The translations under genes and the position numbers were made by a program. From a virus, in the IMG/VR virus record IMGVR_UViG_3300044729_003839, positions 58,966 to 122,965 of that record: a stretch of DNA of 64,000 nucleotides; one strand, given 5' to 3'. Positions 2 through 64,000 of this stretch are shown piece by piece; the first letter of the stretch is position 1, and each line of letters opens with the position of its first letter. The notes under the pieces are model-generated. The model saw only the letters and a list, made by a program, of their open reading frames with translations, was not told the origin of the DNA and did not search any database.

Positions 2-3000
2 GATGATAAGAACTCGGCCCTTAGGTTGACGGCTAACCCTACACCTTACCTCGAACCTGAGATTCCGACAGCCAACCGCCCATTTAAGTCATTCGCTCAG
101 TCAATACCTTGGGGTCAGTATGTAAACTCCGTAGTCGCCTTGTACATCTTCAAGTACATGGTCAATAATTTCTCTGAAGAGAAAAAACTCAGATATAACA
201 TATCTTACTTGTTGAGTATTTACCCCACCGACGAGCAGGGTAATTTCAACGACCTAGCTTGGGACAAAATCTGGCTGGATATAAGCCAAAGGCGTCTCGG
301 ACTGCCCGAAAACTACCCCTTGATACCAGAGGTCAAAGCTTATAATTTTAGAGATGCGATTGTAAACAATTTTAGATCTGCTGAGCTTTGGGGGTCCGAA
401 GGGGTAATAATTGAAGAAGCTAATGCGTCACTTCCTTCAAACGCCGACTTCTCTTGGAACAAAGAATATTTCAGTGTTGGCCGTATGTTCTTCCCTTCGG
501 GAAGGCCGGACAACAAAGGACATTTTTACATAAAGACCAATCCAGACGTTAATGTATGGGAAAAATACTTCGGCCTGAGGTGGAATCTTATAAAACAAGA
601 GATAAAGGATTGGGAGTTTACTGTTCACGAATCAGAAGATACAGTAACAGACATTGAAAAAGAATTAAAACTGCCTTATGTTATTATAACTGACAATCCC
701 CAGGCTTTTACTCCCTCTTGGCCAATAGCAGCGAGTACAGATTTGCCGGTCAACGGCAACAGGATAGGGGGCGCACGCGGTATCAACACGGGGATACTGC
801 TCAAATCGACGCGAGCTTTTAGGTATCAGCCAGGCAGAATAAGTGGATTTACATACGGGGTCAAGTTAAGTGAAATTGGGGCAGGCCCAGGAACTACCCT
901 CGAGTTCGGGATTGAAAATTTCACCGACTCTTATATGTTCCGCCTCACCAACGGGGGTAATTTCTCGATTATACGGCGGTCAGTTGTCCCTCTGGATGAG
1001 ACGGTATTTTTGAGTGATGCGCGGTATGGGGAGAACACCAAAGAGGTGATAGTAGACGGGCAAGTGCAATACGAAACTACTATCGGGCAGAACATAATGA
1101 ACGGGGACCCTCTTAACGGCGAAGGTCAAACCGGTTATATTCTCGACCCAGACGCTGTAACCATGTTCAAGATCGAGTTTGGCTGGTACGGTGCTATTGG
1201 CGCGAGGTTTTATGCCTATGTGCCAGTGAGAAACGATGAGTGCAGATGGGTAACTATACATACGCTAGTAATTGAAAATCAACTCAAAAAGCCTTGCCTA
1301 GGGGATCCGTTCTTTTTCTTCACTTACAAACTAGACATACAAGACTCGAGTTCTGTGCGTCTAGAACAGTTTGTCGACAAGTTCGGTGCGTCTTATTATA
1401 TCGATGGGTATGACGATGGAACTACCTCCCCTAAAAGTATTTCGTCCGGTACCCGGTCTTTAAGCGTTAATGCTAGTGAAGTCCAGAACACTATAAGCCC
1501 GTTGGACTGGACGACTTTGACCGGGTTCAAATCGCGCAGCTTTATAACCAACTCGCAAGGGGATGAAATCCCCAATAAGAAGGAGATTTTTCCAGAAAAA
1601 ATCAATATTTTTTCTACAACGGACTGTGAAATCAAATTTATTCGACAGTCCGGATGCCCAGAGTATGCTTATAATCATCAAGAGGGGTATAGATGGCAAA
1701 TACTGCCGGAGAATAGAAGGCTGAAGGGAAAGTTTTTTATAAACCCGTTCTTCGAATTAGATTTACCTGAGCTGGAAATCTCTCAGTCCAACTCAAGTAC
1801 GCACACAGCCATAGCGTTATATAACGCTGCTTCACAAGGACAATTTAGGGATCCTACCGTTCAAAGTAACTGGGACGTTACAGGACAGCAATATCTGCGA
1901 GTATTGGCTAATGATGTTTTCGGGGTTTTTGTAGACAAGACAGCTTTCCCGACAGACTCAGCTTTGTTGCGGCTAAAAAGACCGGTAAATTATAGGTATT
2001 TATCGAGCAGGTCGGCCCTGCCAGAGCCAATAGATACGGTCAAGTTGCCATTTACTTACGCCCCCGTATCCCCCAACGAACAGGGATACGACCTTGAAAT
2101 AGACTATTTTCGTAGAGATCAGGTCCTGTTGTCTTCCGTGGACGTAAATTCTAACGAGTTCTATATATACTGGACGGGAGGACGAACTCCTGGCCCTAAT
2201 CCGGGGAATTTCGCCTCCATCCGATTTGGATTCTGCTGGCCTAATGTATCAGACGATCAAAGTCCGATCTATGCTCTGGGATCATCGGGGGACTGGGGAA
2301 TTGAGCAAGGCCCAGTGGAGTATGATGGCCAAACTTTTTACGAAGGATTGCCGTACGATTTTGTAAGCGATTTCTCTGATAACTGCCTTTATGTAGAAAC
2401 AGGCTCAGATGTGCGGTATAATACATTCGGCCTGGAAATACGAGAAGAAGACTTTTTCGCCGGAAGGTTTATGAACCTCGAGCCTGATTTCGTTCTCTCC
2501 GCTCCAGGGACTGAAGGAGGAATATGCAGAGGGCTGTTTTGTAAGGCTGGGAAAGAGATCAGAGATCAAGTAGTTATTATATCTGAATATAACGAAGACG
2601 AAGACATAACCACTTATTTTGTGTCAGATCCTAACTCGCCTTGGCCCAATCTCGAACCGAAGAATTACACCGTCACAATATCTCAAGGGGACAATAAGGT
2701 CAGCGTAGAAACCACTGGGGGTATTACCAGAAATTTAGACGGAGTAGTTCTATATCTAATACCTATTGGGGAATCTTTACCAGAAGGCATAGAAGAAGGG
2801 TTTGCTAAAGTCTCGTACAATATTATTTATATTGCAAGAATGGACCAAAAGTCTAGAGTTGTAGAGATATTGACTTCGGAGATAGCTCCTGGCGATTTGC
2901 CATTTGTCCGCGTGTTTATCCAAGGTAGGCAAGGAGCCCAGCTCGGAGGGGTATGGATAGGACAAAAGACTTCTGAAGGAATTAGGGTATCCCCATTGAC

Positions 3001-3454
3001 TCCGCACAGGTCGTCCCTGTCCATATCCGACAACGGAGTTGATAAGCACGGGGAGTGGTCTGACCCCCCTGAGGAGGACGGGGCGGTGAAAGCGGTGGCT
3101 GCCTATACCCAGGCTGGCACAGCCCCTACCTTAGACGCCTCAGAGCAAAGTCTTACTACATTTAAATCGATCAATACAAGTCCGAGAAAGTGCGGCAATT
3201 TTATAGTCCCGGGCGTGTTCACGGGCTCAGACTACCCACTACGTACATTCACCCAACCATCAATCGGTACTCCCATTGCAACTTATTACGTATCCGCCAA
3301 CAAACCCACCCAAATCGACCTTAAAAACGTGTTCTATGTAGGCGGAGAAGGTGTGTACAACAGTGTTTACTCAAACATCGCTACGTTTGTTGTGGCGAGA
3401 TCGATAGAATCCCCGGGACAAGTGCAGGTGTCTTTGAATTATATAGAAAGTTGA
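2..3454 (+). CDS. Large virion structural protein, 5' end outside window
   Basis: The reading frame is open to the left edge of the window; the first in-window initiator is a TTG at 26 with no clear ribosome site, so the true start is probably upstream and the gene is partial. At least 1142 residues are present. No enzymatic motif is visible. The central part (about nt 800-1350) is beta-rich and reads like a jelly-roll or LamG-type sheet domain, with many aromatic and glycine residues. There are no membrane segments. It is followed after 24 nt by a second giant virion-type gene driven by the GTTGAAAGC element, whose TGA is this gene's stop codon. Position and style suggest a tail fibre, baseplate periphery or capsid-surface protein. 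The exact role is not recognised. Confidence 0.7.
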   Translation, partial: DDKNSALRLTANPTPYLEPEIPTANRPFKSFAQSIPWGQYVNSVVALYIFKYMVNNFSEEKKLRYNISYLLSIYPTDEQGNFNDLAWDKIWLDISQRRLGLPENYPLIPEVKAYNFRDAIVNNFRSAELWGSEGVIIEEANASLPSNADFSWNKEYFSVGRMFFPSGRPDNKGHFYIKTNPDVNVWEKYFGLRWNLIKQEIKDWEFTVHESEDTVTDIEKELKLPYVIITDNPQAFTPSWPIAASTDLPVNGNRIGGARGINTGILLKSTRAFRYQPGRISGFTYGVKLSEIGAGPGTTLEFGIENFTDSYMFRLTNGGNFSIIRRSVVPLDETVFLSDARYGENTKEVIVDGQVQYETTIGQNIMNGDPLNGEGQTGYILDPDAVTMFKIEFGWYGAIGARFYAYVPVRNDECRWVTIHTLVIENQLKKPCLGDPFFFFTYKLDIQDSSSVRLEQFVDKFGASYYIDGYDDGTTSPKSISSGTRSLSVNASEVQNTISPLDWTTLTGFKSRSFITNSQGDEIPNKKEIFPEKINIFSTTDCEIKFIRQSGCPEYAYNHQEGYRWQILPENRRLKGKFFINPFFELDLPELEISQSNSSTHTAIALYNAASQGQFRDPTVQSNWDVTGQQYLRVLANDVFGVFVDKTAFPTDSALLRLKRPVNYRYLSSRSALPEPIDTVKLPFTYAPVSPNEQGYDLEIDYFRRDQVLLSSVDVNSNEFYIYWTGGRTPGPNPGNFASIRFGFCWPNVSDDQSPIYALGSSGDWGIEQGPVEYDGQTFYEGLPYDFVSDFSDNCLYVETGSDVRYNTFGLEIREEDFFAGRFMNLEPDFVLSAPGTEGGICRGLFCKAGKEIRDQVVIISEYNEDEDITTYFVSDPNSPWPNLEPKNYTVTISQGDNKVSVETTGGITRNLDGVVLYLIPIGESLPEGIEEGFAKVSYNIIYIARMDQKSRVVEILTSEIAPGDLPFVRVFIQGRQGAQLGGVWIGQKTSEGIRVSPLTPHRSSLSISDNGVDKHGEWSDPPEEDGAVKAVAAYTQAGTAPTLDASEQSLTTFKSINTSPRKCGNFIVPGVFTGSDYPLRTFTQPSIGTPIATYYVSANKPTQIDLKNVFYVGGEGVYNSVYSNIATFVVARSIESPGQVQVSLNYIES

Positions 3455-3478: not shown

Positions 3479-6400
3479 ATGTCCGAAGGGGTTTTTAGGG
3501 GATTTGGACAATTTTCTCGCCCAGACATCGGGCTGATTTCCGACGGGTTTCAAAACCTTTCCGAAATCTTCGAGTCGGACAAGCGAAACGCGTTAAGAAA
3601 TATACTTCTAGATCCTGAATCTCTTGACCAAATTTATCAGTTATCTGAAACTATTAGTAGAGAGGATCTTAGGTCGGTCTCCGGTCTATCTTCCTTCCTG
3701 CTTTCAACCCTGCATAGAATTGATAATATATCAGGAGATCGAATCCTTGAGGAGCTTGAGGTTGACAAGCTATACGCTTCGCCTAAGTACACCTTGGGTG
3801 GTACGGGTTCCAATGCTTTAAACCGTCCGAATGTAATAATTTTTAACGGAGGCATAAAGTGCGAAGGTGCTTTTTACCGCGCTAATGTACTTTCCGAAAG
3901 TCTTTTCGAAAACCCAGAAAAAAGACTAATTTCCCTCTCGACATCCCGCTCAAGTCTTTTCAGCTCCAACTTGGACGAGGATAATCCCGGGTTCTTCAAA
4001 GACGCTTCGTATCCGGGGTCTGTCCGCGTACGCAGAAAGTCCCATGTCAATAGAATTTTTGTCCCCGAGGGTTCTTTCGTCCGGAAGTCTTCCGTCCCTG
4101 AGTCTCCCTCCCACACCCTTAAGCTCAATGTCATTAACGGGCCTGGGCAACCAGTAACACCTTTGAAATTACTGGCCACTATAAACTCCCCACTCAAGAT
4201 ATTTTGCAGACTTTCCAGGGGTAGTATAAAATTTAAATTCACTGACTCGTTAATTAATTTTTACGGGTACCAAGTGCAAGTTGTCCAGCAAAGGCCTAAT
4301 ACTGAATTTGTAGACTTTTTACAAGTAGAACCATCTTCTCAACCCTCAGGTACAAACGAGTTCACTTTAGATATAGATATCACGAGTACTGGATATCAAC
4401 AGGTATACGATTTGTACCTGTATCTTTACCTGAATCCAGAAAAAGTCAGAGGTCTAGAGTTTGAAGGTATCGATATCAGAGAAACTCCTGATAAAAAAGA
4501 CCTTGGCCTTATAGGGTTTAACAACCTCGAGGAACTTAGAGTGTCCGGAGGTTCGATGACGATCCTGCCACTCTGGTTAAAAACACTCTCTAACAAGCTC
4601 CGGGTACTCGATCTTAAAAACAGCGGAGACACTTGGAAATCAGGTCCGATGTCCTGGTTTGATATCAGGAATTCAGGGGCTGTCCCCTCATTCAATCACC
4701 CCATTTATACAGTAGTAAGCTATTTAACAATCCCCAAAAGCGGGCCGATGATAAACAGCGCCGGGGATGATTGGGCGGATGAAAAGTTTGAGAAATATAT
4801 TTTAAACGAGAGCAGGACTGCCGGGGTTGATTATCGCCAATTTACAAATTTACAAGAACTTTACCTCGGGGACAGATTCAGGGGACTTAATTCCGACTTA
4901 AGTGATGTTTTCCCCAACTTAAGGGTACTGGAATGGAACACTAAAACTCGCGGACTAACAGCCTTCATTTCCGGCCAAAAATTGCCGTCGATTAAAAACA
5001 CGGGCGGACTGACTCAGTACAACATTTCTGGTTCAGGTGCATCAGGGACAATATATGACATAGGTACATCTACAAACCCATCAGATCCGGGGTATATTTC
5101 GAATTATAGAATGACGTCTTTCAATATCTCCGGATTTTCTGACAGGCGCCATAATATTACAGGCTTTATAGGAAATCCTGCTGAGGACTGGAGTAATTGG
5201 TACTTAAATTCCACATTCATTGATATTTCTAACACCGGGACTACGATTAACATACAAAATAATACTTGGAAATCTTTGAGGGAGCTTTTAGCTGTCCAAT
5301 GTGCAAACTCGTTAAATATTTCAAACCCATCTTCTCCACTTCGTACACCGGCACTCCGATCTATTGATTTGTACGGGTCTATACTCGGGGGTCAAATGTT
5401 TTCACTAGGGGATTCTTCTACTGAAAACACTGGAGAACTGACTTCAATAGGGTTATATAATTCTCGGCAAATTACCCCTGTAGTTAAAAACGGTATTGAC
5501 TACTTTTTACCTGAAAATTTTGCACCCGAAAGGGCTTCGGGATCTCCACACAAACTACTCACACTAAGCGTACCGTCCATACAGCAACAGTTTAGATTCA
5601 GGGAAAAAGACCTTATTAACCTGAGAGAACTAACATACTTCGGGACATTTAACTCCAGATTCACTGGCAGATTTCCAACTATTTCTGCCAGGCCTAACCC
5701 AGAATTAAACACTAAAGTGCTTTCTGTAGTCACACAGTTTTCTGACTTTTACGACCTCAGGAGCCTATCTATTGCCCCTATAAACCCCCTTTTCTCTAGA
5801 GATTTAGCCTATCTGGAATGTAATGGCCAAAACGCCTCAGGAGGTGGGGCTCTATTGCCATCTTTCGAGGGTGTAGTAGACTCTCAGATATCGATTGTGA
5901 TACTGGACTCTTCGTTAAGGAGTACCTATCCCTCTAATTGGTTTTTACCGCAATCCAGGGGCGCAGCGATAAGGAACAACGATTCATACACAGAAATCTC
6001 CGGCCTATCTATTTCCCGAGTAATCCAGACACCTGGAAACGCTTGGGAGGAAAAAGATAATATTTATACAATTACTGGCGCGAGCAATTTTAATACTAAA
6101 GTATTAGTGAATGATATCATTAAGGGAGCGGTAAATGGTCCGGAAATAGCCCGAGTTTTGTCCGTAAGCTCTACGGAAATTATTATAGACAGAGATATAC
6201 CTAACACTTTGCCGTCAACTTTATACTTTTTTAGAAATACTGTCGACATAACAAATTGGTTCTCCTCTGGTTTTTCAAAATTAGTAACTTTCCGGGCCAA
6301 GAATTGTAGGCTTTCGGGATCCTTGAATATTTTGCCTGGGTTTAGCAGTGTCGTTTTTCTAGACTTATCCGAAAACAACATAACGTCCTATGTCCCCGGT

Positions 6401-60546: not shown

Positions 60547-61455
60547 ATGTCTAATACCCAACGTAAGGACTTTCTAGTTTACGGTTACGCCAGGGAAAAA
60601 TCCGACCAGTTTGGGGATGTAGGGACCTATTATTATATAGGAAAAGGGACAAAAAACAGGCCCTACAACTGCTGGAAAAGCGCCAGAAAAACTAAATGCC
60701 CCCGGGACAGGGTGAAGAATATCCACATACTGCATAAAGATCTCGATGAAGAGACTGCTTTCAAATTAGAGATAGAGCTTATAGCTAAATACGGAAGAAT
60801 AGATTTATACCCGACAGGGGGTATACTATTAAATAAAACCGACGGTGGGGAAGGAGGTTCTGGAAATCTTTGGGGCCCCAGCCATTCTAGGTATGTCTCA
60901 CGCTGCTGGTGCCATGTGGATATAGGATTTGTTTTCAATAAATCTTCAGCCGAAATATGCAGAGAATATTACTATCTAAATTTGAATAGAAATAAGTTAA
61001 ATTCAGTAGCTAGCGGACTTTGTAATAGTTACAGAGGGTGGATAGTAATAAGAACAGAATTAATCGAAGAAAGTCTTAGCGAGGGGGAACTGAAGAGAAG
61101 ATTTACTCCAGAATACGCTAGAAAATTTTTAGAGGAAGTCAAGAAGTCTGCTATCCGTAAGAGGTCTAGGGGCAACACTGGTGAGCCCAAGACCATAAAA
61201 AACAAAGGTTATCACTCAAAAAGCACAAGAAAATTAATATCTCGAATTGTCAGAGGGAAGTCTAAAAGATTTAATTGGGTGAATTATGAGTTGGGGATAG
61301 TGACTTCGGGTTATACAGTGTCGGATCTTTGGGAAGAATTTAATCACCTAAATTTAGACAGGAGTACTTTATCGAAAGTTATCAACAGAAAACAAACAAA
61401 TCACAAAGGGTGGTTCTGTTTAGGGGAGGCGGGAACAGATTTTTCGGTGCGGTAA
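60547..61455 (+). CDS. GIY-YIG homing endonuclease
   Basis: 302 residues. The N-terminal ~95 residues are a GIY-YIG nuclease: DFLVYGYAREKS, then GTYYYIGKGTKNRPYNCWKS, a FKLEIELIAKYGRIDL helix bearing the catalytic Glu, and LLNKTDGGEGGSGN. The rest contains DNA-binding repeats of NUMOD type (NKSSAEICREYYYLNLNRNK, then TSGYTVSDLWEEFNHLNLDR, both followed by GWxV/GWF). Codons are AT- and AGA-rich. It separates the endolysin from Hsp20. No flanking duplication was found. Confidence 0.87.
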   Translation: MSNTQRKDFLVYGYAREKSDQFGDVGTYYYIGKGTKNRPYNCWKSARKTKCPRDRVKNIHILHKDLDEETAFKLEIELIAKYGRIDLYPTGGILLNKTDGGEGGSGNLWGPSHSRYVSRCWCHVDIGFVFNKSSAEICREYYYLNLNRNKLNSVASGLCNSYRGWIVIRTELIEESLSEGELKRRFTPEYARKFLEEVKKSAIRKRSRGNTGEPKTIKNKGYHSKSTRKLISRIVRGKSKRFNWVNYELGIVTSGYTVSDLWEEFNHLNLDRSTLSKVINRKQTNHKGWFCLGEAGTDFSVR

Positions 61456-61558: not shown

Positions 61559-61930
61559 ATGTTACCCCAGACCGCAGTTTCCCTTCTCCGCGCCCTTGAC
61601 GGCATGAGTTCTGTTCCTGTAGTGCGAGGAGGCGCAACAGTCCCTCGCCATAATGCGAAAGTTTGCGATGATCAGATTGTGTACGAAATCGCTTTGCCGG
61701 GATTCAAGAAAGAGGATGTTAAAGTTAGTGTTTCGCCTGGCCGTCTAGACGTATCGTCCGACACCACCAGGGACTACTCCTCGTACGTGATGGCAGGAGC
61801 GCGTGTCGCCCCCTTCTCCATCAGTTTCCCCATGCCGTCCTCCGCCACCGTCAAAAGTGCGACCATGGCTGACGGGTTACTGTATGTGACGATCCAGACA
61901 CAGGACGCAACGACCATTGCAGTTACCTGA
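61559..61930 (+). CDS. hsp20: Small heat-shock protein, Hsp20/alpha-crystallin
   Basis: 123 residues. The alpha-crystallin domain covers ~30-118: CDDQIVYEIALPGFKKEDVK, VSVSPGRLDVSS and the ending ATMADGLLYVTIQT with the dimer strand. No IxI C-terminal motif is evident. Hsp20 is a recurrent gene in phages of cyanobacteria and probably holds unfolded proteins during virion assembly. It is smaller than bacterial homologues because the N-terminal arm is short. The MoxR ATPase follows after 47 nt. Confidence 0.9.
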   Translation: MLPQTAVSLLRALDGMSSVPVVRGGATVPRHNAKVCDDQIVYEIALPGFKKEDVKVSVSPGRLDVSSDTTRDYSSYVMAGARVAPFSISFPMPSSATVKSATMADGLLYVTIQTQDATTIAVT

Positions 61931-61941
61931 TGCGTGTGTTA

Positions 61942-61976
61942 GGGTGAGGAGGTCCCGAGAGGAAAACCCCTCACCC
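61942..61976 (+). other. Stem-loop flush with the MoxR start codon
   Basis: GGGTGAGG (61942-61949) pairs with CCTCACCC (61969-61976); the ATG follows 1 nt later. It could act in translation control of the ATPase gene. Confidence 0.5.
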
Positions 61977-61977
61977 A

Positions 61978-62985
61978 ATGCTCACACTCAACGTCTCCGA
62001 AGCAGCCAAAACCCTCCAGGCCATTATCGCCGGGGCCATCAAAACCTCCGTAATGATGTGGGGCGCACCTGGAATCGGCAAAAGCTCAATCGTTCAGCAA
62101 GTGGCCGAACAGAACGGCATGGAGGTGATCGACGTACGCCTCAGCCAGCTCGCTCCTACTGACATTCGCGGCCTTCCCTTCGTCCAAGAAGGAATCGCCC
62201 ACTTCGCGCCCCCCAGCTTCCTGCCCCAGTCCGGCAAGGGGATTCTGTTCCTGGACGAGGTGAACCTCGCTCCCCCGGCCATTCAGAACGTGGCCATGCA
62301 ACTCGTTCTGGACCGCCGCGTGGGCGACTACACCGTACCCGATGGCTGGTTCATTGTCGCCGCCGGTAACCGTGTCGAGGACCGGGCTGCAGTCAACCAG
62401 ATGCCCGCTCCTCTCGCCAACCGCTTCCTGCACTTCACTGTCGAACACGACCTGAACTCCTGGAAGACCTACGCGATCAAGCACGGTATCCGGGAAGAAA
62501 TCATTTCCTACCTGAACTTCCGCCCCGACTCCCTCCACAAGTTCTCCAAAGACGCCATCGCCTGGCCCAGCCCCCGGAGCTGGGGATACGCCTCCGACCT
62601 CCTCAAGATCGGCCTGAGCGTCGATCCGGCCGTGGGCGAAGGTGCTGCAGCCGAATTCAAATCGTTCATCAAGATCTACAGCAAGCTGCCTGCCGTGGAG
62701 AAAGTCTTGAACGGCGATATGTCCGTCAAGATGCCCAACGAGCCCAGCATGGTCTATGCGGTTACTGGTGCGTTGGTGGCACGCTCCGAGACTGTGGACA
62801 ACTATTTCAACGCGGCCAAATGGCTCGTTGGAGCGACAACCGAAGACTACCTCGGCGTGTTCTTCTACGACGCGATTACTGCCCTGTCCGTCAAAGGCAT
62901 GTTTGAGAACTTCGCCGTCAAGGTGAACAAGGACAAAGATCTCCAGTCCTTCATGGCTCGGTACGCCAAGCTGCTCAATTCCTGA
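61978..62985 (+). CDS. MoxR-type AAA+ ATPase
   Basis: 335 residues. Walker A GAPGIGKSS (29-37), RLSQLAPTDIRGLP (the substrate-loop region), Walker B GILFLDEVNLAPP (~88), sensor 1 FIVAAGNRVEDRAAV and the arginine-finger region APLANRFLHF are all present. The C-terminal lid is helical. MoxR proteins work as chaperones or metal-insertion motors together with VWA-domain partners, and the next gene has a VWA domain, so the two probably form a complex. Role in infection unknown; the proteostasis link with Hsp20 is inference. Confidence 0.88.
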   Translation: MLTLNVSEAAKTLQAIIAGAIKTSVMMWGAPGIGKSSIVQQVAEQNGMEVIDVRLSQLAPTDIRGLPFVQEGIAHFAPPSFLPQSGKGILFLDEVNLAPPAIQNVAMQLVLDRRVGDYTVPDGWFIVAAGNRVEDRAAVNQMPAPLANRFLHFTVEHDLNSWKTYAIKHGIREEIISYLNFRPDSLHKFSKDAIAWPSPRSWGYASDLLKIGLSVDPAVGEGAAAEFKSFIKIYSKLPAVEKVLNGDMSVKMPNEPSMVYAVTGALVARSETVDNYFNAAKWLVGATTEDYLGVFFYDAITALSVKGMFENFAVKVNKDKDLQSFMARYAKLLNS

Positions 62986-63002
62986 GCATTTCACTGGCGA
63001 GG

Positions 63003-63021
63003 GGGCGGGTAAATCCCGCCC
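63003..63021 (+). other. GC-rich hairpin between MoxR and VWA genes
   Basis: GGGCGGG and CCCGCCC pair round TAAAT. Only a mixed CTCCTTCTC tract follows, so it may be a weak terminator or attenuator. A run of nine C (63051-63059) lies just before the next gene. Confidence 0.5.
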
Positions 63022-63062
63022 TCCTTCTCAAGTTTGTACACCTGTCACTTCCCCCCCCCAAC

Positions 63063-64000
63063 ATGGCACCTCCAATCGCCAAACGGGTCATCAAGTCCCG
63101 AGTAAAGCTGCTCAAAAACTCTCCGTTCTTCGGTACTTTGCTGTTCCACGCTCAAGTCAAAGAAACCGAAAACATTCCTACTGCCGCTACAAACGGCCAG
63201 TCGATCTTCTTCAACAAAGACTTTTCAGATACGCTTGACGACGAAACCTTTCAAGGTATTCTGATCCACGAGGTACTGCACGCAGCGTTGCTGCATGTGC
63301 CCCGGATGAAAGATATCTCGATGAACGACCCGGCGATCTCGAACATCGCTTGTGATATTGTCGTCAACGGGATCTGCGACGAAAACAACATCAAGCTTAC
63401 CGACGGTGCGATCAGAGACAATGAGCTGAAGCACTTGAGCGTGCGAGAGATCTACTCGATCATCAAGCAGAAGCAGGCGGAAAACCCCAAGCATCTTCAA
63501 CAGAAATACGGAATTACTCAGGTAAATGCTTGCCTGTTTAATGGTAATCCGGAAGGTGAGGGTGAGGGTGAGGGTGATGGAGACGGCCAAGGCACCGGCC
63601 AGGATGACGGCGGGATCGACTGGAAAGACGCCATGACCAAGGCGGCTACCATCGCTCGTATGAAGAAGGCGGGCTCGATGGGTGCAACTTTGGAGCGCGT
63701 GTTTGCCGAACTTCTCGAACCTACTATCGACTGGCGCACTATCCTCTACAAGTACATTACCGAGTCGAGGACGGACTTCTCCGGCTACGATCGACGTCAC
63801 GTGTACAACGGTCTGTACCTGGACGACTTTTCCGGCAACCAAGTCCACGTCCTGATCTACATCGACGTTTCGGGCTCTATCGATGAACAGCTTCTGACCG
63901 ACTTTATGTCCGAAATCCACGGCGCGGTCAAGAGTGTGGATTCAATCTGCGGCGAGGCCTTCTGCTTCGACACACGCCTCCACCATGTCTGCGCCGTCGA
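63063..64000 (+). CDS. Metallopeptidase-VWA protein, 3' end outside window
   Basis: 312 codons visible, open to the right edge. The ATG at 63063 starts MAPPIAKRVIKSRVKLL. A zinc-peptidase-like signature HEVLHAALLH (HExxH, ~68-77) lies in ILIHEVLHAALLHVPRM. A low-complexity Gly/Glu/Asp linker, coded by tandem GGTGAG units, is at ~161-180. A VWA-type metal-ion-dependent adhesion start IYIDVSGSI (DxSxS, ~265) comes near the edge. This order matches putative metallopeptidase plus VWA-like proteins that pair with MoxR ATPases. The upstream hairpin may limit read-through from MoxR. Confidence 0.82.
   Translation, partial: MAPPIAKRVIKSRVKLLKNSPFFGTLLFHAQVKETENIPTAATNGQSIFFNKDFSDTLDDETFQGILIHEVLHAALLHVPRMKDISMNDPAISNIACDIVVNGICDENNIKLTDGAIRDNELKHLSVREIYSIIKQKQAENPKHLQQKYGITQVNACLFNGNPEGEGEGEGDGDGQGTGQDDGGIDWKDAMTKAATIARMKKAGSMGATLERVFAELLEPTIDWRTILYKYITESRTDFSGYDRRHVYNGLYLDDFSGNQVHVLIYIDVSGSIDEQLLTDFMSEIHGAVKSVDSICGEAFCFDTRLHHVCAV

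Follow-up and report, generated by a model that had tools for sequence, protein, structure and literature searches.

Three genes lie head to tail on the + strand at the right end of the window analysed here, the 64,000-base stretch G000:C1:58966-122965 that forms the final part of a 122,965-base viral record: a small heat-shock protein (Hsp20), a MoxR AAA+ ATPase, and a protein that joins a metallopeptidase-like domain to a VWA domain. The source genome is a relative of cyanophage S-TIM5, and the MoxR-VWA pair in this S-TIM5-like phage is real, was correctly read from the DNA and is largely known already, being the gp24/gp25 pair of phage N4, which belongs to the core genes of N4-like phages, occurs in jumbo and rV5-like phages too and is common in bacteria. 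Hsp20 is a companion of the pair specific to the S-TIM5 lineage, perhaps a functional one, and not a defining part of it. What the sequences show directly is gene identity, intact active-site motifs, the co-retention of motor and receptor, gene order, the setting among tail, lysis and virion genes, and the predicted folds. New here are a bacterial LRV-repeat neighbour of the pair and a related N-terminal LRV domain in S-TIM5-like phages.

The three genes and their conserved residues

An earlier note on this DNA had claimed a three-gene cassette at 61559-64000, and all three reading frames were found there on the + strand with matching families, separated by 47 bases (Hsp20 to MoxR) and 77 bases (MoxR to VWA). 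Their features, in window positions, are as follows.

61559-61930, + strand: Hsp20 / small heat-shock protein, 123 amino acids (PF00011 E 9.5e-10; phrog_432 E 4.6e-12)
61859-61882, + strand: alpha-crystallin-domain motif of Hsp20
61916-61924, + strand: C-terminal I-x-V of Hsp20
61978-62985, + strand: MoxR AAA+ ATPase, 335 amino acids, phrog_1297 (N4 gp24 family); AAA_5, AAA_3 and AAA above cut-off; phrog_1297 E 2.5e-90
62062-62085, + strand: Walker A GAPGIGKS of MoxR; Lys kept in 69/69 alignment rows
62239-62259, + strand: Walker B GILFLDE of MoxR; Asp kept in 69/69 rows, following residue Glu in 50 and Asp in 19
63063-64000, + strand: metallopeptidase (DUF2201_N) and VWA protein, phrog_1314 (N4 gp25 family), first 312 amino acids without a stop; DUF2201_N (PF13203) E 8.4e-30; phrog_1314 E 4.7e-65
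63267-63296, + strand: HExxHxxxxH metallopeptidase motif (HEVLHAALLH); HExxH kept in 80/80 rows, last His in 79/80
63342-63368, + strand: second conserved peptidase segment N-x-A-x-D-x3-N; N94, A96, D98 and N102 kept in 80/80 rows
63543-63611, + strand: Gly/Glu/Asp-rich linker, length-variable in the alignment of near-identical relatives and a low-confidence stretch in the model of the homologue from contig L006
63864-63878, + strand: MIDAS motif DVSGS of the VWA domain; D, S and S kept in 80/80 rows

The MoxR protein has an AAA+ core (AAA_5, 34.6 bits against a cut-off of 22), and K35 (Walker A), D93 (Walker B), N131, R149 and R200 never vary among the 69 aligned proteins, an alignment from which nine of 73 loci were omitted, six as truncated and three as near-duplicates. 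When the predicted model (pLDDT, the predicted local distance difference test, 93.2; pTM, the predicted template modelling score, 0.85) was searched with Foldseek, NorQ filled ranks 1-12 and CbbQ2 rank 13 (E 6.8e-10 to 3.2e-8), several of the NorQ matches being entries of the NorQ-NorD VWA complex; as modelled, the fold is closest to NorQ/CbbQ. Midasin, which bears a MIDAS domain of its own, is the solved protein that matches best in sequence. The MoxR of cyanophage S-CREM1 has been assigned to the CGN subfamily (PMC9964418). PF20030, the bpMoxR family, scored 23.7 bits on the window MoxR, below its curated cut-off of 27, and a VMAP/bpMoxR ternary conflict system was rejected on that ground. 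PADLOC gave MoxR only weak P-loop matches (best E 1.8e-4, over 38 residues) and gave none for Hsp20 or the L006 VWA protein; a known anti-phage defence system was rejected on the outcome of this search.

It is the contig end, and not only the window, that truncates the VWA gene, since the window closes the record. The two outermost 3-kb stretches of the contig share no direct or inverted repeat of at least 15 bases, so the missing 3' end could not be recovered by assuming a circularly permuted genome, and the complete gene was taken from relatives. The rest of the gene, missing when the earlier note was made, was thus obtained from the related contigs L006 (397 amino acids) and L051 (389 amino acids), both of whose proteins are complete and pass PF13203 and PF09967. 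The cut window copy reaches 15.2 bits against PF09967, for which the cut-off is 26.4, a value passed by the complete L006 (51.2 bits), L051 and S-TIM5 homologues. In L006 and L051 the MIDAS is complete, with D-x-S-x-S and, further downstream, a Thr kept in 79 of 80 rows (one row has a gap) and an Asp kept in 77 of 80 (three have gaps); four of 80 loci (L080, L091, L113 and L121) were left out of this 80-row alignment. Candidates for the third metal ligand of the peptidase-like domain are H78 or the N94/D98 segment. Judged from sequence, the invariant residues of the two proteins would fit selection that keeps the motor working, the peptidase-like domain able to bind metal and the binding face dependent on metal.

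In the predicted model of the L006 protein (pLDDT 83.6; pTM 0.57), residues 259-397 match VWA domains with Z up to 13.5 and a root-mean-square deviation of 2.6 over 137 residues, and the second Foldseek match is Rea1-MIDAS in complex with Ytm1. The N-terminal domain has weak sequence similarity (E 0.0016) to MJ1213, a small zincin-type peptidase; structure comparison, which barely probes this part, assigned no peptidase structural family to L006 residues 1-258. PHROGs and many RefSeq phage records label phrog_1314 'HNH endonuclease'. An HNH identity was rejected, as Pfam scans of the window copy and five homologues returned no HNH family, and by these scans the label looks like a propagated misannotation. 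The linker at 63543-63611, built of Gly-Glu and Gly-Asp dipeptides, resembles a coding microsatellite.

Hsp20 scores 38.9 bits against PF00011, whose curated cut-off is 20.8, and its profile matches solved small heat-shock proteins (E 4.7e-15); the segments at 61859-61882 and 61916-61924 are presumably small-heat-shock motifs.

The MoxR-VWA pair in phages and bacteria

The earlier note had likened MoxR and its neighbour to a bacterial-type MoxR-VWA pair, and this likeness was borne out. Family profiles found phrog_1297 in 22/22 and phrog_1314 in 21/22 chosen phage records, including the rV5-like FFH2, GAP31 and phiTE; the lone exception, G004 (L007), ends 148 bases past its MoxR match. Seventeen named phages are among these records, a non-random choice in which 16 were hand-picked from search matches and N4 was added by name: all nine chosen through the MoxR search also have VWA, and all seven chosen through the VWA search also have MoxR. 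At E<=1e-5, tblastn against GenBank phages matched MoxR in 816 records and VWA in 347, a gap that is partly one of sensitivity, since the family profiles find VWA in nearly all chosen records.

Linkage was examined in 80 viral and 80 bacterial loci, the best matches to the L006 VWA protein; some of the viral loci are near-duplicates, and one (L053) is phage G itself. Of the 80 viral loci, 73 have a MoxR gene that precedes the VWA gene in the same orientation, and the other seven extend just 260-1,344 bases upstream. The bacterial figure is 67 of 80, with 66 in the same orientation, and linkage is looser there, since ten of the 13 loci without an upstream MoxR do have 1.8-5 kb of upstream sequence. 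In S-TIM5 and L051 the MoxR and VWA reading frames share 4 bases; FFH2 and GAP31 encode the two proteins on opposite strands, about 4 kb apart, and still keep both. Independent loss of the genes among relatives, which the earlier note had held to speak against a cassette, thus applies to one member: MoxR and VWA are retained together, whereas Hsp20 is separable, being present in 7/22 and 1/50 records.

A DUF3150-like protein was seen near the pair, between, before or after the two genes, in 43 of the 73 viral loci that have both; it was rejected as a conserved third phage gene, 30 of the 73, among them L051 of the S-TIM5 lineage, being without one. In a quick tree of 84 VWA proteins, the S-TIM5 lineage stands next to the bacterial clade (support 99 in the Shimodaira-Hasegawa-like approximate likelihood ratio test, SH-aLRT), and a single branch separates the bacteria from all other sequences (support 90); the tree samples one in three of the viral loci (27) and one in two of the bacterial loci (40), has several long branches and has no inferred root. 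The idea that the S-TIM5 lineage took the pair from bacteria separately was set aside, as a single origin of the phage copies also fits this tree.

Hsp20 and the S-TIM5 lineage

Gene order is shared with S-TIM5 up to the trio, running through a primase, a 327-amino-acid protein (56% identical to its S-TIM5 counterpart), a 575-amino-acid protein, a tape-measure/tail-lysin-like protein, a baseplate-wedge-like protein and several small proteins. S-TIM5 and the window are 56% identical in MoxR and 49% in the VWA protein, and an annotated Hsp20 stands directly before both. The contigs L002/L004 and L003/L005 are near-identical to the window, L006 and L007 have MoxR proteins about 70% identical to the window's, and L051, a further S-TIM5-like contig, reads through the whole trio region. 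L006, S-TIM5 and L051 repeat the order of the trio, and L007 has Hsp20 and MoxR in the same order up to the point at which its contig stops. Between the window and L004, the MoxR genes differ at 48 codons synonymously and at 19 non-synonymously. Most of the variation among near-identical copies falls at third codon positions, and relatives repeat the gene order, so the trio is more than chance.

Hsp20 is directly upstream of MoxR on the same strand in all copies of this lineage that were read (window, L004, L005, L006, L007, S-TIM5 and L051). Outside it, the co-occurrence of Hsp20 with the pair for which the earlier note had looked in other phages failed to appear: Hsp20 was found in 7/22 phage records with the pair (absent from 15) and, among 50 further pair-bearing records drawn from the 80 viral loci, in one, which is L051 (absent from 49). 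Across both sets the sole carrier outside the S-TIM5 lineage is Pseudomonas phage Paride (L041), whose Hsp20 lies about 61 kb from the pair; a profile search gave no Hsp20 match in N4, RaK2 or XbC2. Several genes stand between the MoxR and VWA genes of Paride.

We hold it to be a matter of even balance whether Hsp20 is simply a chance neighbour, unrelated to the pair, a view that is compatible with any account of what the pair itself does. Its absence from most pair-bearing records, its distance from the pair in Paride and its position next to replication genes in Kyanovirus S-CAM9, which is without phrog_1314, all favour chance. What speaks against chance is that the gene keeps its place before MoxR in every copy read from the lineage despite marked divergence, since outside the near-identical copies Hsp20 is 21-44% identical to the window's (L006 44%, L007 37%, S-TIM5 21%; five copies compared).

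Upstream of the trio, the lineage has tape-measure/tail-lysin-like, baseplate-wedge and endolysin genes. At the site after the VWA gene, S-TIM5 and L051 carry different virion proteins. In S-TIM5 the order is a small gene, then one annotated as coding for a virion structural protein, then ThyX; L051 has a 70-amino-acid gene, a virion structural protein (phrog_1645, E 8.6e-107) and a 262-amino-acid gene at the position of ThyX. The two virion proteins match different families, and FG-GAP repeats occur only in that of S-TIM5. Five long contigs of the lineage, namely the window genome, L002, L003, L006 and L007 (the latter four of 82, 85, 68 and 119 kb), end inside or near the VWA gene; either a variable region follows or a genome end is nearby.

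Comparison with known systems

The closest systems are phage ones. N4 gp24/gp25, core in Schitoviridae, has phrog_1297 and phrog_1314 in the same order, adjacent or nearly so; it differs in the absence of Hsp20, in its replication-gene neighbourhood and in its middle transcription (PMC4193335). The pair is listed among the core genes of N4-like phages in the same source, and gp25 is core in one of three methods (PMC7650795). S-TIM5 (Aurunvirus) has Hsp20, MoxR and the third gene within the same flanking order, and its record calls Hsp20 a 'Bacterial-like gene' and the second gene a MoxR-like ATPase, leaving the third hypothetical (HNH endonuclease in the RefSeq copy). A MoxR-vWA pair that includes an N-terminal metallopeptidase, the same domain architecture by published description, was reported from group 2.2 jumbo phages by Iyer et al. 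2021, who proposed virion assembly with peptidolytic processing and cited the archaeal virus ATV (PMC7824862). The jumbo-phage sequences used here are RaK2, PBECO4 and XbC2, of which RaK2 and XbC2 differ from the window in having no Hsp20 match.

In ATV itself, a viral MoxR ATPase likewise has a VWA partner: the MoxR protein p618 is a major virion component, binds the VWA protein p892 strongly and has been assigned to tail development (PMC4124505). ATV is, however, an unrelated virus, and its system is without the peptidase domain according to PMC7824862. A two-subunit MoxR chaperone, orf66/orf63, was reported in phage 0305phi8-36 in 2007 (PMC2147016) and is likened to the pair by that published description.

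Among cellular systems, NorQ-NorD and CbbQ-CbbO offer the closest solved folds of the MoxR motor and use a VWA protein as adaptor, but they serve the maturation of metalloenzymes and of rubisco. NorD- and CbbO-type partners are not known to carry DUF2201_N.

Possible function of the pair

We speculate, at about an even chance of being right, that the pair together with Hsp20 processes a virion protein of the S-TIM5 lineage by means of a motor and a receptor. MoxR would form an ATP-driven ring of the NorQ/CbbQ type, and the VWA partner would contact it, holding the target through its metal-bearing MIDAS face and docking it on the ring. The N-terminal zinc-metallopeptidase-like domain of the partner could then clip the remodelled target. 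In an S-TIM5-like phage the likeliest target would be a virion protein of the tail or baseplate side at a late stage of infection. Hsp20, whose gene belongs to the same block, may hold that protein soluble beforehand.

Several observations are consistent with this proposal. Among them are the joint retention of MoxR and VWA, their intact motifs, the NorQ-like and MIDAS-type fold matches, the tail, lysis and virion genes around the trio, and the ATV p618/p892 precedent. Virion-protein genes stand on one or both sides of the pair in RaK2, PBECO4, XbC2 and the S-TIM5 lineage, and in roseophage RPP1 four mid-phase virion proteins are encoded near the gp24/gp25 homologues (PMC4193335). Mass spectrometry of phAPEC6 virions detected an 'ATPase', gp265c, of 49.52 kDa with 6 peptides (PMC7247149). 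PBECO4, which that source places in the same species as phAPEC6, encodes a MoxR with a calculated mass of 49.50 kDa, and gp265c is probably the MoxR of the pair.

Other observations weigh against it. Thymidylate synthase and a PhoH-like protein are in the virion list of phAPEC6 too, which makes carry-over of abundant proteins from infected cells possible, and the VWA partner (54.1 kDa, calculated for PBECO4) is not identified in the list, as far as the available part of PMC7247149 goes. In N4 and its relatives the pair sits among replication genes (dCTP deaminase, helicase and DNA polymerase), gp24/gp25 is a middle and not a late transcript in N4 (PMC4193335), and the pair is followed by a DNA polymerase A gene in 26 viral loci. 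The earlier note's suggestion of a virion-assembly chaperone is thus plausible for this phage, given the block of tail, lysis and virion genes and the published proposal for jumbo phages, whereas the replication setting of the N4-like pair tells against it. A literature search, mostly short of full text, found no published knock-out of N4 gp24/gp25 or of the S-TIM5 MoxR, and a CRISPRi-ART study mentions N4, in the part of its text available, only for the rII genes (PMC11879866).

The same setting in N4 could be read differently: the pair might remodel or cleave a phage protein of replication or nucleotide metabolism, or insert a metal cofactor as NorQ-NorD does, its position among late genes being incidental. 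We consider this rather unlikely. It would agree with the proximity of the pair to helicase and polymerase genes in N4, LUZ7 and Vibrio phage D502, with the middle transcription in N4, and with the fact that the window phage encodes both ribonucleotide reductase subunits. The nearest folds point the same way, as NorQ and CbbQ2 act on metalloenzymes and rubisco. Roles of this kind have also been described for MoxR-VWA couples in general (PMC7159879). However, the virion genes that flank the pair in RaK2, PBECO4, XbC2 and the S-TIM5 lineage, like those near the homologues in RPP1, argue against such a role, and no metalloenzyme gene was found among the identified neighbour clusters.

The host-protein remodelling that the earlier note offered as its alternative is neither supported nor refuted by these data. 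We consider it unlikely that the pair acts on the host by dismantling or degrading one of its proteins or a defence protein: retention in a wide range of unrelated phages, the MoxR-VWA modules of bacterial conflict systems (PMC7159879) and the view that patchy jumbo-phage metallopeptidases attack host proteins (PMC7824862) would favour this, but no defence family was found beyond the weak P-loop similarity given above, and among N4-like phages its distribution is not patchy, the pair being listed as core (PMC4193335; PMC7650795).

Should the pair prove to mature virion proteins, phages would have in it an assembly factor that joins ATP-driven remodelling to proteolysis. The genes are core in N4-like phages and occur in several jumbo phages and in the S-TIM5 lineage, yet they are publicly mislabelled as HNH endonuclease; their identity as a MoxR motor and a protease-VWA protein makes a clear experiment possible in N4, a phage of E. 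coli.

An LRV-repeat neighbour of the bacterial pair

When the neighbours of the pair were clustered across the 80 bacterial loci, a long LRV-repeat protein was found in 54, the next family occurring in 11. It is encoded upstream of MoxR on the same strand in 34 loci, mostly within about 140 bases. The LRV/HEAT neighbour was observed in cyanobacteria, Chloroflexota, Deinococcota, Verrucomicrobiota and others (L131-L210). PF01816 matched one member of the cluster with E 6.1e-73. The cluster was built by single linkage and has 89 members, including at least one HEAT-only protein (L177), and 56 of the 89 have at least two copies of a simple LRV motif.

Among 23 pair-bearing phage records, PF01816 matched only in S-TIM5 and the window genome, below its curated cut-off in both. 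The two genes are:

G000:C1:6731-8164 (= L031:6731-8164), - strand, outside the window: 478-amino-acid protein with one N-terminal LRV-type segment, PF01816 below cut-off
S-TIM5 1915-3135, - strand: LRV-type homologue of the window-genome protein (E 1.5e-20)

A third copy, in G004 (E 2.8e-59), has one stop within the matched stretch. A profile of the N-terminal part of the two phage proteins, searched against 631 proteins that are all neighbours of a MoxR-VWA pair, found the bacterial LRV proteins (best whole-protein E 6.4e-15, best single domain about 1.4e-5) and found nothing in reversed or shuffled copies of the same 631. The S-TIM5 protein is 42% identical to a Calothrix LRV protein over the aligned stretch. 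At the level of sequence comparison, then, the phage and bacterial proteins have a common LRV-type segment. This does not by itself give them a common function, because LRV domains are repeats, the search set consisted solely of proteins encoded near a pair, and in the phages the LRV-type gene lies away from MoxR. One limited literature search found no paper that combines LRV with MoxR-VWA.

It would be tempting to see here a three-part machine, in which an LRV/HEAT adaptor joins the NorQ-like MoxR and the metallopeptidase-VWA receptor to make a regulated AAA+ protease, the repeat protein picking the target, and of which S-TIM5-like phages keep a shortened adaptor, with Hsp20 beside the motor. 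We regard this as improbable. The bacterial LRV partner, if confirmed, would nevertheless hint at how such machines select their targets.

Among the minor features of the window, a 302-amino-acid GIY-YIG-like protein (60547-61455, + strand; weak PF22945, phrog_15526 E 4.2e-9) is encoded between endolysin and Hsp20. L006, L007 and L051 are without such a gene at this site, and L006 has a 31%-identical copy elsewhere (3869-4771). Presence and absence at one site among relatives fit a mobile, homing-type endonuclease gene.

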